DNA from: Pseudonocardia nigra
Lineage (GTDB): Bacteria; Actinomycetota; Actinomycetes; Mycobacteriales; Pseudonocardiaceae
Reading direction: 5' to 3'
NCBI RefSeq assembly: GCF_019396355.1
Contig: NZ_JAHKRK010000009.1
Location: forward strand, 1 to 64,000
DNA length: 64,000 nt
Under the pieces are notes generated by a model. That model did not search any database. It was not told the origin of the DNA and was given only the letters and a program-made list of their open reading frames with translations. The translations under genes were made by a program, and so were the position numbers. Shown here one piece after another: positions 59,046 to 64,000 of this stretch (positions within the stretch are counted from its first letter, which is position 1; the number at the start of each line of letters is the position of its first letter).

Positions 59046-59861
59046 ATGATGGCGACTGCGAACAAGGTGAGCGTGATCCCCTGCGGGGCCATGACCGCGG
59101 ACCTGACCTGGCTGTTGCTGAAGCCGGGCCGGTCGATCGTCGACCGCAGCAACAAGAGCGCCCCGGCCCCGTGGGTCGACGTCCCCACGCACTGCGTCCT
59201 GGTGGAGACCTCGGAGGGCAAGCTCCTGTGGGACACCAGCTGCCCGCGGGACTGGGAGGAGCGCTGGGGCCCGACGGGCCTGCAGGAGTTCTTCCCCTAC
59301 GACAACGTCAGCGACGAGGAGTACCTCGACGCGCGGCTGCAGCAGATGGGCGTGGGCCTCGACGAGATCGACTACGTGGTTCTCTCGCACCTGCACTTCG
59401 ACCACGCGGGCAACGCGCAGATGTTCAAGAACACCGGCGCCAGGCTCGTCTGCCACCAGCGCGAGAAGGACTTCGCGTTCGGCTTCGACGGGCTCTTCAC
59501 CGGCGCCCACCTCAAGACCGACTACGAGGGGCTGGAGTTCGAGACCGTCTCCGGCGACACGGAGCTGCTGCCCGGCGTCACGCTGATCGAGACGCCGGGC
59601 CACACGGTGGGGTGCATGTCGATGCAGGTGGACCTGCCCGAGACCGGCACCATGATCTTCACCTCCGACGCCGTGTACATGGGGGAGAGCTACGGGCCCC
59701 CCGCGGTGCCCGCGGCGATCGTCAACAACCTGGAGCAGTTCTACTCGTCGGTGGAGAAGCTGCGCGGCATCCAGGAGCGCACGAACGCCACGATGGTGTT
59801 CGGCCACGACGCCGAGCAGATCCACCAGCTGCGCGTCGCTCCGGAGGGGGCGTACACGTGA
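59046..59861 (+). CDS. Metallo-beta-lactamase-fold lactonase (AttM/AHL-lactonase family)
   Basis: 271 residues. Two-zinc site motifs are complete: SHLHFDHAGN (H-x-H-x-D-H), a His in ETPGHTVGCMS, the bridging Asp in FTSDAVY, and a last His in VFGHDAEQ. The start region (VSVIPCGAMTADLTWLLLKPG) and size are those of N-acyl-homoserine lactonases including AttM/BlcC, which hydrolyses gamma-butyrolactone. Two ATGs are adjacent; GAGAGG is upstream of both. It overlaps the transhydrogenase gene by GTGA. In that company a gamma-butyrolactonase role is more likely than quorum quenching, an inference. Confidence 0.85.
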   Translation: MMATANKVSVIPCGAMTADLTWLLLKPGRSIVDRSNKSAPAPWVDVPTHCVLVETSEGKLLWDTSCPRDWEERWGPTGLQEFFPYDNVSDEEYLDARLQQMGVGLDEIDYVVLSHLHFDHAGNAQMFKNTGARLVCHQREKDFAFGFDGLFTGAHLKTDYEGLEFETVSGDTELLPGVTLIETPGHTVGCMSMQVDLPETGTMIFTSDAVYMGESYGPPAVPAAIVNNLEQFYSSVEKLRGIQERTNATMVFGHDAEQIHQLRVAPEGAYT

Positions 59862-61147
59862 CCTCGCAGGAGCTCACCGAGGAGACAATCTTCACCTGGG
59901 GTGCCCCGCCGCTGAAGTTCGGCGCGGGTGCCTCCGACGAGGTCGGCTTCGAGATGTCCGGGTACGGCGTGCGGCGGGTGCTGATCGTCACCGATCCGGG
60001 GATCAACGCGATCGGCATGCCGCAGCGGATCGCCGACAACCTGCGCCGCTACGACATCGAGTCGGAGATCTTCGACGGCGTGCACGTCGAGCCCACCGAC
60101 GACTCGATGAACAAGGCCACCGAGTACGCCCGCGCGCAGGGCCCGTGGGACGGGTTCGTGGCCGTCGGCGGCGGGTCGGCGATCGACACGGCCAAGGCCG
60201 TCAACCTGCTCACCAGCCATCCCGGTGAGCTGATGGACTACATCAACAAGCCGATCGGCAACGCGAAGGTGCCCCCGGGGCAGCTCAAGCCGCTCATCGC
60301 GATCCCCACCACGGCCGGCACGGGCTCGGAGTCCACCGCGATGTGCGTGCTGGACATCCTGTCCATGAAGGTCAAGACGGGGATCAGCCACTGGCGGCTG
60401 CGCCCCACCCTGGCGGTGGTCGACCCGCTGCTGACCATGTCGCTGCCGCCGGAGGTCACCGCGGCGTCCGGGATGGACATCGTCTGCCACGCGCTGGAGT
60501 CCTACACCGCGCGCTGGTACACGACCTTCGACCGGAAGAAGCCCGAGGAGCGGGTCACCTACTGCGGCTCGAACCCGGTGTCCGACCTGTGGTGCGAGAA
60601 GTCGATGACGCTGCTGGCGAAGTCGTTCCGCACGGCGGTGCACCGCGGCGCCGACGACGTGGCGGCGCGCTCGGACATGATGATGGCGGCCACCTTCGCC
60701 GGCATGGGCTTCGGCAACTCGGGCGTGCACATCCCGCACGCCAACGCCTACCCGATCGCGGGCATGGTGAAGGACTACCGGCCCGCCGGCTACCCGCAGG
60801 ACGAGCCGATGGTGCCGCACGGGCAGTCCGTGTCGCTGACGGCGCCCGAGGCGTTCCGGTTCTCGTTCGAGAGCGCCCCGGAGCGGCACCTGCGGGCGGC
60901 GGAGCTGATGGACCCCGGTGCGGACAAGGTGAACGACGCGCGCGAGCAGCTGCCGTCGGTGCTGATCCGCCTGATGCGCGACATCGGCATCCCGAACGGG
61001 ATCGGCGGCGTCGGCTACACCGAGGCCGACGTCCCCGACCTCGTCCCGGGAACCATGAAGCAGCAGCGGCTGCTCGCGACCTGCCCGAAGACGCCCACCG
61101 AGGACGACATCGCCGACATCCTCACCAAATCCGTCGAGAACTGGTGA
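59858..61147 (+). CDS. Iron-containing alcohol dehydrogenase of the hydroxyacid-oxoacid transhydrogenase (ADHFE1/HOT) type
   Basis: 429 residues. Group III metal-dependent alcohol dehydrogenase: RRVLIVTDPGIN, FVAVGGGSAIDTAKAVNL (nucleotide loop), IAIPTTAGTGSESTAM, SGMDIVCHALESYT and GVHIPHANAYPIAG (metal ligands Asp, His, His, His). The inserts KTGISHWRLRPTLAVVDPLL, TYCGSNPVSDLWCEKSM and VPHGQSVSLTAPEAFRF are characteristic of mammalian-type HOT, which couples 4-hydroxybutyrate oxidation to reduction of 2-oxoglutarate, giving succinic semialdehyde and D-2-hydroxyglutarate, with bound nicotinamide. Coupled to the lactonase gene by overlap. Confidence 0.85.
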   Translation: MTSQELTEETIFTWGAPPLKFGAGASDEVGFEMSGYGVRRVLIVTDPGINAIGMPQRIADNLRRYDIESEIFDGVHVEPTDDSMNKATEYARAQGPWDGFVAVGGGSAIDTAKAVNLLTSHPGELMDYINKPIGNAKVPPGQLKPLIAIPTTAGTGSESTAMCVLDILSMKVKTGISHWRLRPTLAVVDPLLTMSLPPEVTAASGMDIVCHALESYTARWYTTFDRKKPEERVTYCGSNPVSDLWCEKSMTLLAKSFRTAVHRGADDVAARSDMMMAATFAGMGFGNSGVHIPHANAYPIAGMVKDYRPAGYPQDEPMVPHGQSVSLTAPEAFRFSFESAPERHLRAAELMDPGADKVNDAREQLPSVLIRLMRDIGIPNGIGGVGYTEADVPDLVPGTMKQQRLLATCPKTPTEDDIADILTKSVENW

Positions 61148-61165
61148 CGAGCGCCGGAGGCGCCC

Positions 61166-61621
61166 ATGCCGATCTACGTGTTCAAGTGTGAGTGCGGGCT
61201 GCGGTTCGAGCAGCTCACCTCGTTCGACGCCGCGCCGCCAGGTTGCCCGGAGTGCGGCGGGGCCACCCGGAAGATCCCGGCGGGGTTCAGCCTCGGAGGC
61301 CAGGCCGACGCGGGTCTGGCCAAGGAGCAGATGCCGCAGACCTGGCGCGGCACCTACGAGGGCAACCGCGAGTACGTCACCGGGATGCGACGGCAGTGGG
61401 ACCGCCGGCAGCGGCTCGAGGCGAAGCACCCGGAGCTCGCCGGGGACCAGCGCCCGATCGTCGCGCACGAGGGCCGCTACCACGGTGCGCCGCTCCGCGC
61501 CGGGGACCCGGTGATCGGCGGGACGGCGGGCCATGGGCACGGACACGGGCACGGACACGGACACGGCGGCCCGGCCGCAGCTCCGCCGTCGAGCCCACCC
61601 GCGTCCGGGGGCTCTGACTGA
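61166..61621 (+). CDS. FmdB-type zinc-ribbon protein with a His-rich tail
   Basis: 151 residues. The first 40 form a FmdB/CxxC regulatory zinc ribbon: PIYVFKCECGLRFEQL and PGCPECGGATRKIPAGF. The rest is basic and polar (REYVTGMRRQWDRRQRLEAK), ending in an alternating Gly-His run near residue 125 that could bind nickel, zinc or iron. FmdB was first found with formamidase genes and regulates or supports metal enzymes. Between a metal-dependent HOT enzyme and a Fe-S enzyme it may assist metal supply. GGAGG lies about six bases before the ATG. Confidence 0.82.
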   Translation: MPIYVFKCECGLRFEQLTSFDAAPPGCPECGGATRKIPAGFSLGGQADAGLAKEQMPQTWRGTYEGNREYVTGMRRQWDRRQRLEAKHPELAGDQRPIVAHEGRYHGAPLRAGDPVIGGTAGHGHGHGHGHGHGGPAAAPPSSPPASGGSD

Positions 61622-61625
61622 CGCC

Positions 61626-64000
61626 GTGACCGTGTCCCGCTCCGCCCTGCCGCCCGACGTCGCCGATCTGCACGCCGACCTGGTCCGGGCCGTCCGGGGC
61701 CCGGTCCGGTTCGACACCGCGACGCGCGCCATGTACTCCGCGGACGCGTCGAACTACCGCCGCGTTCCGCTCGGCCTCGTCACCCCGGTCGACACCGACG
61801 ACGTGGAAGCCGCGGTGTCGGTGTGCAGCACGCACGAGGTGCCGGTGCTGCCGCGCGGGGCGGGCACGAGCATCGCAGGCCAGGCCGTCAACACCGGCGT
61901 GGTGCTCGACTTCACCCGGCACCTGAACCGCGTGCTGGAGATCGATCCGGCCGCCCGGACCGCCCGCGTCGAGGCCGGGGTCGTGTGCGACGCGCTGCGC
62001 GACGCCGCGCGCCCGCACGGGCTGACGTTCGGGCCCGATCCGTCCACGCACAACCGCTGCACGCTCGGCGGGATGATCGGCAACAACGCCTGCGGCTCGC
62101 ACTCGGTGGCCTGGGGCAAGACCGTCGACAACGTGCACGGCCTCGACGTGCTCACCTATCGCGGCGAGCGGCTGGAGCTGGGCCGCGGGACGCCGAGGGG
62201 CGGCCGGATCCCGGAGGCGTTGCGGGCGCTGGCGGACCGGGTCGGCGACGACGTGCGGCGCGCGTTCCCCGACCTCACCCGGCGCGTCTCCGGCTACAAC
62301 CTGGACCAGCTGCTGCCCGAGAACGGGTTCGACCTGGCCCGCGCGCTCGTCGGCACCGAGGGCACCTGTGCCACCGTGCTGGAGGCGACGGTGCGGCTCG
62401 TGGAGTCGCCGCCCGCCCGCGCGCTGGCCGTGCTCGGGTTCCCCGACGCCTACACCGCCGCCGATCACGTCATGGTCGTGCGCGAGCTGGGCCCGCTCAC
62501 GATCGAGGGCATGGACGCCGGGCTGATCGCGGCGCTGCGCGCGTCCAACCCGGTGGAGACGGCGTCGCGGGCGTTGCCCGAGGGCGGCGGCTGGCTGTAC
62601 GTGGAGACCGGTGGCGCGACCCGCGAGGAGGCCCACGCGGCGGCAGAGGCCGTCGCCACTGCGATGAAGCCTTACGCGACGGCGAGCGTGGTCGTCAGCG
62701 ACCCGGCGCAGATGAAGGCCCTGTGGCGGATCCGCGAGGACGGCGCGGGCATCCTCACGCGTTCGCCGGACGGCGGCGAGGCCTGGCCCGGCTGGGAGGA
62801 CGCCGCGGTGCCGCCGGAGCGGTTCGGCGCCTACCTGCGGGAGTTCGACGCCCTGCTGACCCGCCACGGCCGCCGCGGCGCGTACTACGGCCACTTCGGC
62901 GACGGCTGCCTGCACGTCCGGATCGACTTCGACCTGCTCAGCCGGGCCGGCATCGCGAACTTCCGGGGGTTCATGGAGGACGCGGCCGACCTGGCCGTGG
63001 CGCACGGCGGCTCGCTGTCTGGCGAGCACGGCGACGGCGCCGCGCGTGCCGAGCTGCTGCCGCGGATGTACCCGCCGGAGATCATCGCCGCGTTCGAGGA
63101 GTTCAAGGGGGTCTGGGACCCGGACGACCGGATGAACCCCGGCCGCGTCGTGCGCCCCGCGAAGCTCGACGAGGACCTGCGGGTCTTCGTCGGCATGCCC
63201 ACCCTGCCCGACGAGCCGGAATGGGCGTTCTCCCACGACCGCGGCTCCTTCACCCGCGCCACCCGCCGCTGCCTGGGGGTGGCCAAGTGCGTCACCGAGC
63301 ACGGCGGCGTGATGTGCCCGAGCTACCGCGCGACGGGCGAGGAGATGCACTCGACGCGCGGGCGGGCGCGGCTGCTGTTCGAGATGGCCTCCGGCGAGGT
63401 GGTCGGCGGCGGCTGGCAGTCGCCGGAGGTGGCCGAGGCGCTGGACCTGTGCCTGTCGTGCAAGGGCTGCAAGCGCGACTGCCCGGTGGGCGTGGACATG
63501 GCCGCCTACAAGACCGAGTTCCTCGCCCAGCGCTACAAGCGCAGGCTGCGGCCCGCGGCGCACTACTCGATGGGCGCGCTGCCGCGGTGGCTGCGGCTGG
63601 CCCGGCGCCTGCCCGCCCGCGCGGTGGACGCCCTCAACGCGGCCGCCCGCGGCCCGTTGGGTGCGCTGGCGAAACGGGTGGGTGGGATCGCGCGGGAGCG
63701 GGCGATCCCCCCGTTGGCCCGGCGCCCGTTCACCGCCGCCCGTTGCAGCAAAGCCACTTTCACGCAACCCGATGGCATGAAAGTGGCTTTGCTGCAATCG
63801 CGGCGCCGGGTGCTGCTGTGGCCGGACACGTTCAGCAACCACTTCGACCCGGCGATCCTCGGCTCCGCCGTCGCCGTGCTCGAGGAGCTCGGGTACGTCG
63901 TCGAGGTCCCGCCGCGGGACATCTGCTGCGGGCTCACCTGGACCTCCACCGGGCAGCTCGACGCCGCCCGCCGGGTGCTGCGGCGCAGCCTGCGCACGAT
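61626..64000 (+). CDS. FAD-linked oxidase/4Fe-4S fusion, YdiJ-type D-2-hydroxyacid dehydrogenase (3' truncated)
   Basis: 791 codons are visible before the window ends; YdiJ-type proteins have about 1000. Domains: FAD-binding PCMH (LPRGAGTSIAGQAV, GGMIGNNACGSHSVAWG, ALVGTEGTCATVLEA), FAD-oxidase C-terminal (WRIREDGAGIL, YYGHFGDGCLHVRIDF, LSGEHGDGAAR), 4Fe-4S ferredoxin part (CLGVAKCVTEHGGVMCPSY, CLSCKGCKRDCPVG) and the start of the CCG region (RDICCGLTW). E. coli YdiJ oxidises D-2-hydroxyglutarate, the co-product of the upstream HOT enzyme. A palindrome (63744-63796) is read in frame. The GTG starts four bases after the zinc-ribbon gene's stop. Confidence 0.86.
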   Translation, partial: MTVSRSALPPDVADLHADLVRAVRGPVRFDTATRAMYSADASNYRRVPLGLVTPVDTDDVEAAVSVCSTHEVPVLPRGAGTSIAGQAVNTGVVLDFTRHLNRVLEIDPAARTARVEAGVVCDALRDAARPHGLTFGPDPSTHNRCTLGGMIGNNACGSHSVAWGKTVDNVHGLDVLTYRGERLELGRGTPRGGRIPEALRALADRVGDDVRRAFPDLTRRVSGYNLDQLLPENGFDLARALVGTEGTCATVLEATVRLVESPPARALAVLGFPDAYTAADHVMVVRELGPLTIEGMDAGLIAALRASNPVETASRALPEGGGWLYVETGGATREEAHAAAEAVATAMKPYATASVVVSDPAQMKALWRIREDGAGILTRSPDGGEAWPGWEDAAVPPERFGAYLREFDALLTRHGRRGAYYGHFGDGCLHVRIDFDLLSRAGIANFRGFMEDAADLAVAHGGSLSGEHGDGAARAELLPRMYPPEIIAAFEEFKGVWDPDDRMNPGRVVRPAKLDEDLRVFVGMPTLPDEPEWAFSHDRGSFTRATRRCLGVAKCVTEHGGVMCPSYRATGEEMHSTRGRARLLFEMASGEVVGGGWQSPEVAEALDLCLSCKGCKRDCPVGVDMAAYKTEFLAQRYKRRLRPAAHYSMGALPRWLRLARRLPARAVDALNAAARGPLGALAKRVGGIARERAIPPLARRPFTAARCSKATFTQPDGMKVALLQSRRRVLLWPDTFSNHFDPAILGSAVAVLEELGYVVEVPPRDICCGLTWTSTGQLDAARRVLRRSLRT
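63744..63796. repeat. Palindromic repeat (family B) within the FAD-oxidase coding sequence
   Basis: Perfect 19-bp arms (left arm TGCAGCAAAGCCACTTTCA) with a 15-base loop. The whole 53 bases is translated in frame as CSKATFTQPDGMKVALLQ between RRPFTAAR and SRRRVLLW. It resembles family A in arm length and the AGCAA/TTGCT ends. Confidence 0.88.

Follow-up and report, generated by a model that had tools for sequence, protein, structure and literature searches.

Four genes packed at the end of a 64,000-nucleotide stretch of Pseudonocardia nigra DNA (the window; positions 1-64000, the first part of an 82,100-base contig in an 8.5-Mb draft genome) encode a metallo-beta-lactamase-fold lactonase, an iron alcohol dehydrogenase of the hydroxyacid-oxoacid transhydrogenase (HOT) type, an FmdB-family zinc ribbon protein and a flavoprotein resembling YdiJ. 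What pathway would bring such proteins together? We consider it probable, judging from the sequences, that the genes form an operon for the oxidation of gamma-lactones and 4-hydroxybutyrate in which the 2-oxoglutarate/D-2-hydroxyglutarate couple acts as electron carrier.

The lactonase, going by its family, would open gamma-butyrolactone or a similar lactone to give 4-hydroxybutyrate. Next, the HOT-type enzyme would use its bound nicotinamide cofactor to move a hydride from 4-hydroxybutyrate to 2-oxoglutarate, yielding succinic semialdehyde and D-2-hydroxyglutarate. The YdiJ-type flavoprotein would reoxidise D-2-hydroxyglutarate to 2-oxoglutarate, passing the electrons through its iron-sulfur (FeS)/CCG part to a respiratory acceptor, probably quinone; since D-2-hydroxyglutarate would be reoxidised in this way, 2-oxoglutarate would serve as a catalytic electron carrier. 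An aldehyde dehydrogenase, absent from the operon and present in some relatives' versions of it, would convert succinic semialdehyde to succinate. Oxidation of the alcohol is uphill with NAD+ and roughly neutral with 2-oxoglutarate, and would then be drawn forward by quinone and respiration. The loop would be closed, and electron transfer would proceed without free NADH.

Linkage of the four genes

The tight packing described in a first-pass annotation of the window is present: the lactonase and HOT genes overlap by 4 bases (GTGA), and gaps of 18 and 4 bases separate HOT from FmdB and FmdB from YdiJ. The YdiJ-type gene crosses the window end, and the contig extends its open reading frame without a stop to base 64526.

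Our genus set comprised 100 relatives, 60 of them (own genome included) from the genus. HOT orthologs occur in 53 of these 60 and the window-type lactonase (at least 77% identity) in 42. In all 41 genus genomes holding both, the two genes lie 0-71 bp apart; the 42nd lactonase genome is a 710-contig draft (G023) with no HOT match. In 40 of the 53, a YdiJ-type gene lies no more than 5 kb from HOT. An FmdB zinc ribbon gene lies 3′ of HOT in most genus loci examined, in Actinomycetospora and in two Streptomyces loci, and sits between HOT and YdiJ in locus L165. Versions with an aldehyde dehydrogenase gene have it between FmdB and YdiJ (G005) or between HOT and YdiJ (G007). The genus linkage counts confirm that the four-gene arrangement goes beyond chance, bearing in mind that kinship inflates such counts within the genus, as it does within the family f30 described below.

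Farther afield, we searched 198 genomes drawn evenly from the phylum (own included) with cut-offs of E <= 1e-75 for HOT, 1e-100 for YdiJ and 1e-30 for the lactonase, which returned matches in 25, 53 and 6 genomes, respectively. All six lactonase matches lie within 3 kb of HOT (hypergeometric probability 2e-6 with the own genome and 2e-5 without it, uncorrected for relatedness). Excluding the own genome, counting by hand gave 15 of 24 HOT genomes in which a YdiJ-type gene lies up to 16 kb from HOT, 6 of them with a distance of 3 kb or less. Of these 15, 13 fall in a single family, f30. In one f30 member (L162), a run of genes on one strand encodes an aldehyde dehydrogenase with 50% identity to BlcA, an SDR protein, HOT, an AttM-like lactonase and YdiJ, an order different from that of the window. 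The neighbours of the f30 clusters are mixed (a glycine betaine-type ABC transporter, asparagine synthase, an enolase-superfamily protein, an AMP-binding enzyme) and indicate no clear substrate.

The neighbourhood search for co-occurrence that the first-pass annotation had proposed gave a positive answer, in that both pairs recur in other lineages. Lactonase-HOT pairs are also found in Actinomycetospora, Streptomyces, a Rubrobacter metagenome-assembled genome (MAG), Deinococcus wulumuqiensis, two Haladaptatus and three other haloarchaea, and HOT-YdiJ pairs in two Nocardioides, two Aeromicrobium and one MAG. On a plasmid of M. dioxanotrophicus the HOT and YdiJ genes overlap by 4 bases, and a succinate-semialdehyde dehydrogenase (SSADH) passing the NCBIfam cut-off lies 4 kb away; an R. 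pseudokoreensis plasmid has HOT without an adjacent YdiJ. No thm-like alpha subunit was found at E <= 1e-20 on either of these two, which had been candidates for cyclic-ether plasmids.

Among 80 named loci sorted by the two insertions that mark HOT proteins (see below), 24 have both, 14 one and 41 none; L146, a fragment that could not be measured, was excluded. YdiJ lies within 6 kb at 6 of the 24 two-insertion loci and at none of the 14 one-insertion or 41 no-insertion iron alcohol dehydrogenase loci (Fisher 0.0016 for 6/24 versus 0/41). A lactonase is nearby at 3/24, 3/14 and 0/41, respectively (Fisher 0.01 for 6/38 versus 0/41; 0.046 for 3/24 versus 0/41). Since a large share of these loci are short, a missing partner is weak evidence.

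We propose more tentatively, with rather less confidence than the reading of the window itself, that dedicated operons of several phyla use the HOT-type enzyme to take electrons from primary alcohols and the YdiJ-type enzyme to deliver those electrons, with no free NADH involved, to the respiratory chain, that this pair has been joined repeatedly to different lactonases and cyclic-ether clusters, and that this could be the general role of bacterial HOT.

The enzymes of the operon

HOT-type dehydrogenase. The available portion of a 2016 survey (PMC5125639) sets the HOT subfamily of iron alcohol dehydrogenases apart by insertions of 19 and 13 residues, describes the mammalian enzyme as oxidising gamma-hydroxybutyrate and, by way of a tightly bound cofactor, reducing 2-oxoglutarate in the same reaction, and calls the activity of HOT proteins outside animals unknown at that date. 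The window protein has the Fe-ADH fold (PF00465, PF25137), the D-H-H-H metal ligands and the GGGS motif (G104-S107). Its ligands are spaced 4/83/27, compared with 4/84/27 by the human numbering in that portion of PMC5125639 and 4/66/14 in Agrobacterium BlcB. The first insertion (about 19 residues, between ligands 2 and 3) is visible as a spacing of 83 versus 66, 17 residues longer than in BlcB; the second (13 residues, between ligands 3 and 4) as 27 versus 14, and as a 13-residue gap against methanol dehydrogenase. Because the spacings differ, the contrast with the blc operon drawn in the first-pass annotation holds: the window dehydrogenase has both insertions and BlcB neither. HOT copies of R. 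ruber, two Deinococcus and L162 repeat the 4/83/27 spacing, and that of M. dioxanotrophicus has 4/82/27. Asp46 fits a preference for NAD by the rule given in the text seen of PMC5125639, its position being placed by alignment without the human sequence. The closest named match, from Actinomycetospora, is 81% identical. We assign the protein to the HOT subfamily (cd08190) from its insertions, its metal ligands and the NCBI annotations of near relatives, with no eukaryotic HOT sequence in the comparison; on that footing a HOT-type rather than BlcB-type enzyme is supported, with transhydrogenase as its predicted activity.

Five haloarchaeal HOT-like proteins have the first insertion only (4/83/14), and several adjoin a lactonase gene; two of them (L149 and L152) are annotated as hydroxyacid-oxoacid transhydrogenase despite the single insertion. 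A Peribacillus protein annotated as HOT also lacks the second insertion (4/79/14). Possibly the name is applied too widely in haloarchaea, or HOT proteins can do without the second insertion.

YdiJ-type flavoprotein. FAD_binding_4, FAD-oxidase_C, 4Fe-4S and CCG domains all lie on one chain, and the Pfam domains of all four operon proteins exceed the curated cut-offs. We took the residue roles at the Zn, C1-carboxylate and C5-carboxylate sites of human D-2-hydroxyglutarate dehydrogenase (D-2-HGDH) from the accessible text of PMC7801405. The Zn and C1-carboxylate residues listed there are retained, as equivalents of Arg386, His434, His441, Glu475 and His476. All 12 YdiJ-type proteins that we aligned, that of E. 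coli among them, have Arg at the position of human Asn443, and the structures compared have Ile (LDHD), Leu (glycolate oxidase) or Tyr (LctD); therefore the site would seem to favour a 2-hydroxy-dicarboxylate such as D-2-hydroxyglutarate. The protein is probably a dehydrogenase of D-2-hydroxyglutarate or of a related 2-hydroxy-dicarboxylate. The earlier label of a YdiJ-type FAD/4Fe-4S protein stands on these domains and this active site, although we class the protein as YdiJ-like, not YdiJ, because it misses the cut-off of the NCBIfam YdiJ equivalog NF049975.

Lactonase. The closest solved chain is 6cgy_A (deposited as 'Beta-lactamase'; E 2e-44), followed by GcL lactonases (6n9q, E 3.5e-43), and the HxHxDH motif of the N-acyl-homoserine lactone-lactonase superfamily is present as HLHFDH. 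The earlier description as AttM-like is loose, the protein being 27% identical to AttM and nearer to GcL/AhlS. It misses the NCBIfam equivalog cut-offs for both AhlS (153.7 versus 475 bits) and AttM (111.6 versus 390 bits). Other lactonases partnering HOT are 71% (Deinococcus), 58% (L162) and 30-32% (two haloarchaeal) identical to AttM; different lactonase subgroups thus partner HOT-type genes.

Table 1. Positions of the operon genes, the repeat within YdiJ and a permease gene beyond the window
Feature	Position	Strand	Details
Metallo-beta-lactamase-fold lactonase, 271 aa	59046..59861	+	Pfam Lactamase_B; HLHFDH metal motif; closest to GcL/AhlS-type lactonases
HOT-type iron alcohol dehydrogenase, 429 aa	59858..61147	+	Pfam Fe-ADH and ADH_Fe_C; ligands D207, H211, H294, H321; both HOT insertions
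FmdB-family zinc ribbon protein, 151 aa, His-rich GHGHGH tail	61166..61621	+	Pfam Zn_ribbon_8
YdiJ-type FAD/4Fe-4S/CCG dehydrogenase, 966 aa	61626..64000, on to contig base 64526	+	Pfam FAD_binding_4, FAD-oxidase_C, Fer4, CCG
Palindromic repeat within YdiJ coding sequence	63733..63809	.	In frame; linker between 4Fe-4S and CCG domains
LctP-family lactate permease	contig 65488-67299		Starts 1 kb 3′ of YdiJ, methyltransferase gene in between

The repeat inside the YdiJ gene consists of AAAGCCACTTTC, a 17-base spacer and GAAAGTGGCTTT. The exact pattern has 60 copies in the genome (backward control, 0); among 15 other copies tested for coding, 14 fall outside any coding-like frame and one near the edge of a frame. 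Five other genus members have different palindrome-like inserts in the YdiJ linker with the frame kept (judged by eye), and because these inserts differ and are all in frame, the linker looks like a place where short palindromes have landed again and again and turned into protein.

The four open reading frames scanned 3′ of YdiJ encode a methyltransferase, the lactate permease, an aldo/keto reductase and a solute-binding protein. At two loci where YdiJ is missing (L027 and L030), an aldo/keto reductase gene follows FmdB within 300 bp; the homologue here starts 2.8 kb past the YdiJ end.

Substrate and alternative readings

Tetrahydrofuran, degraded through gamma-butyrolactone, had been suggested as the source of the module's substrate, and this did not hold. 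The sole match to the thm alpha subunit in this strain is only 43% identical, which leads us to reject tetrahydrofuran as a substrate here; 99% orthologs occur in 2 of the 60 genus genomes, sharing one 66.9-kb contig with the HOT-YdiJ pair in G017 and lying on a separate contig in G044. Tetrahydrofuran is not the module's general substrate, since HOT is present in 53 of the 60 and thm orthologs in only two. Plasmid pYYL1.1 of R. ruber YYL carries HOT and YdiJ as a pair (80% and 75% identical to their window counterparts) about 6 kb from annotated diiron monooxygenase genes, which we take to be the thm tetrahydrofuran genes, with aldehyde dehydrogenase genes alongside. No lactonase or FmdB homologue was found in the 41-kb pYYL1.1 stretch, and absence of the lactonase fits because, in the part of PMC7758286 available, tetrahydrofuran degradation runs via gamma-hydroxybutyrate, which 2-hydroxytetrahydrofuran can reach through the aldehyde. 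The segment of pYYL1.1 with the monooxygenase genes and the HOT-YdiJ pair (L066, 1013-32791) is flanked on both sides by Tn3 transposase, SDR and methyltransferase proteins of the same accessions, which suggests a mobile unit.

Several observations weigh against the operon having the role that we propose. Within the genus, 13 of the 53 HOT genomes have no YdiJ within 5 kb of HOT; they include ten examined loci with lactonase, HOT and FmdB, and five of the 13 have a YdiJ of at least 72% identity elsewhere in the genome. Lactonase paralogs (52-55% identity) not adjoining HOT occur in nine genus genomes, and such a paralog without any HOT match in two genomes of the order. The lactonase is on the strand opposite HOT in two of the six lactonase genomes of the phylum sample, G193 and G268. 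Fifteen of the 24 two-insertion loci have neither partner by the thresholds used, a partial lactonase match at one of them (L070, Streptomyces) aside. Of ten annotated HOT plasmid neighbourhoods, a lactonase adjoins HOT in three (two Haladaptatus and D. wulumuqiensis) but not in the other seven, a YdiJ is annotated in none (the gene tables being incomplete), and two of the three from Deinococcus lack both partners. The YdiJ-type protein is 28% identical to E. coli YdiJ, scores 452 bits against the NF049975 cut-off of 1350, and has altered equivalents of two C5-carboxylate binders of human D-2-HGDH as given in the accessible text of PMC7801405 (Lys401 to Trp, Thr390 to Ala), E. coli YdiJ likewise being without Lys401. 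The SSADH looked for just past the window end was not found: with BlcA, two R. ruber aldehyde dehydrogenases and the M. dioxanotrophicus SSADH as queries, tblastn (E <= 1e-5) of the window and of bases 64001-76000 of the 82,100-base contig gave no match to an aldehyde dehydrogenase. Of seven aldehyde dehydrogenases scanned near HOT elsewhere, only that of M. dioxanotrophicus reaches the SSADH cut-off and six fall below it. Lastly, the lactate permease gene 1 kb past YdiJ is compatible with a lactate-related role for YdiJ.

It is unlikely, though the best of the alternatives, that the same machinery serves another lactone (delta-valerolactone, an N-acyl-homoserine lactone or a native gamma-butyrolactone signal), with HOT oxidising the matching hydroxyacid and 4-hydroxybutyrate not the main substrate. 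The nearest lactonases, GcL and AhlS, carry annotations as quorum quenchers that act on N-acyl-homoserine lactones, HOT-type genes have lactonases of more than one subgroup as partners, and the wide presence of HOT in the genus makes a rare solvent an unlikely substrate. Yet AttM-type lactonases, 58-71% identical to AttM of the blc operon, take the place beside HOT in D. wulumuqiensis and L162, and two other plasmids have an annotated SSADH gene at a distance of 2-4 kb from HOT. The HOT-YdiJ pair without a lactonase near the thm-type genes also points to 4-hydroxybutyrate, given the tetrahydrofuran route via gamma-hydroxybutyrate in the portion seen of PMC7758286.

A still less likely account dispenses with the loop: the iron alcohol dehydrogenase would oxidise 4-hydroxybutyrate with NAD in the ordinary way, as BlcB does, and the YdiJ-type protein would separately oxidise D-lactate, glycolate or another 2-hydroxyacid imported by LctP. 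An LctP-family permease gene does lie 3′ of YdiJ here, in G005 and in G007, the ten genus loci without YdiJ would suit such independence, and among solved structures the best alignments to the FAD part of YdiJ are those of glycolate oxidase and D-lactate dehydrogenase. Against this stand the two HOT-specific insertions that BlcB lacks, YdiJ-HOT pairs at loci without an LctP match, and residue 443, Arg here and not the Ile, Leu or Tyr of the LDHD, glycolate oxidase and LctD structures. That the genes are coincidental neighbours in a compact genome, joined by vertical descent only, is very improbable and already disfavoured: conservation is largely that of one genus, with f30 making up most of the linked phylum genomes, and many HOT loci elsewhere have neither partner, but in other lineages the genes come in different orders, the lactonases are non-orthologous and a YdiJ subgroup has 36-39% identity, and either partner occurs at 0 of 41 measured no-insertion loci.

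Comparison with known systems

The literature searched gave no account of a bacterial HOT-YdiJ or HOT-lactonase operon; subscription papers lay outside it, and an earlier mention is possible. HOT protein is reported to increase in engineered Aspergillus, with the animal enzyme cited (PMC10061894, available portion), and D-2-hydroxyglutarate is called an oncometabolite (PMC8651671, available portion). The recurrent partners (lactonase, YdiJ, aldehyde dehydrogenase) provide a specific prediction for HOT outside animals, testable with three purified proteins. If the 2-oxoglutarate loop is right, some bacteria would form D-2-hydroxyglutarate routinely as a redox intermediate, and the operon would supply candidate enzymes for the 4-hydroxybutyrate oxidation step of tetrahydrofuran degraders.

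E. coli YdiJ shares the FAD and FeS architecture and the active-site set, including Arg at 443, but annotation of the 9 kb surrounding ydiJ shows neither a HOT nor a lactonase gene. Agrobacterium blcABC, which we take to be the genes also named attKLM, places a lactonase and an iron-containing alcohol dehydrogenase together, as here, and has an aldehyde dehydrogenase, as do some relatives' versions of the window operon. BlcB, however, lacks both HOT insertions and is 32% identical to the window HOT, the annotated genes of the 32 kb surrounding blc include no YdiJ, and the window operon has no SSADH; it is thus not a blcABC operon, defined by a BlcB-type NAD alcohol dehydrogenase, SSADH and AttM lactonase. 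The thm-type cluster of pYYL1.1 shares the HOT-YdiJ pair with the window, whereas the window strain has no thm ortholog (best match 43%). Mammalian HOT (ADHFE1) and D-2-HGDH supply the same two enzyme types; in the window their genes are clustered with a lactonase gene, and the flavoprotein is a YdiJ-type FAD/FeS/CCG fusion, unlike mammalian D-2-HGDH, which is without the FeS part. The enzymes are of known kinds, and their partnership recurs in distant microbes.

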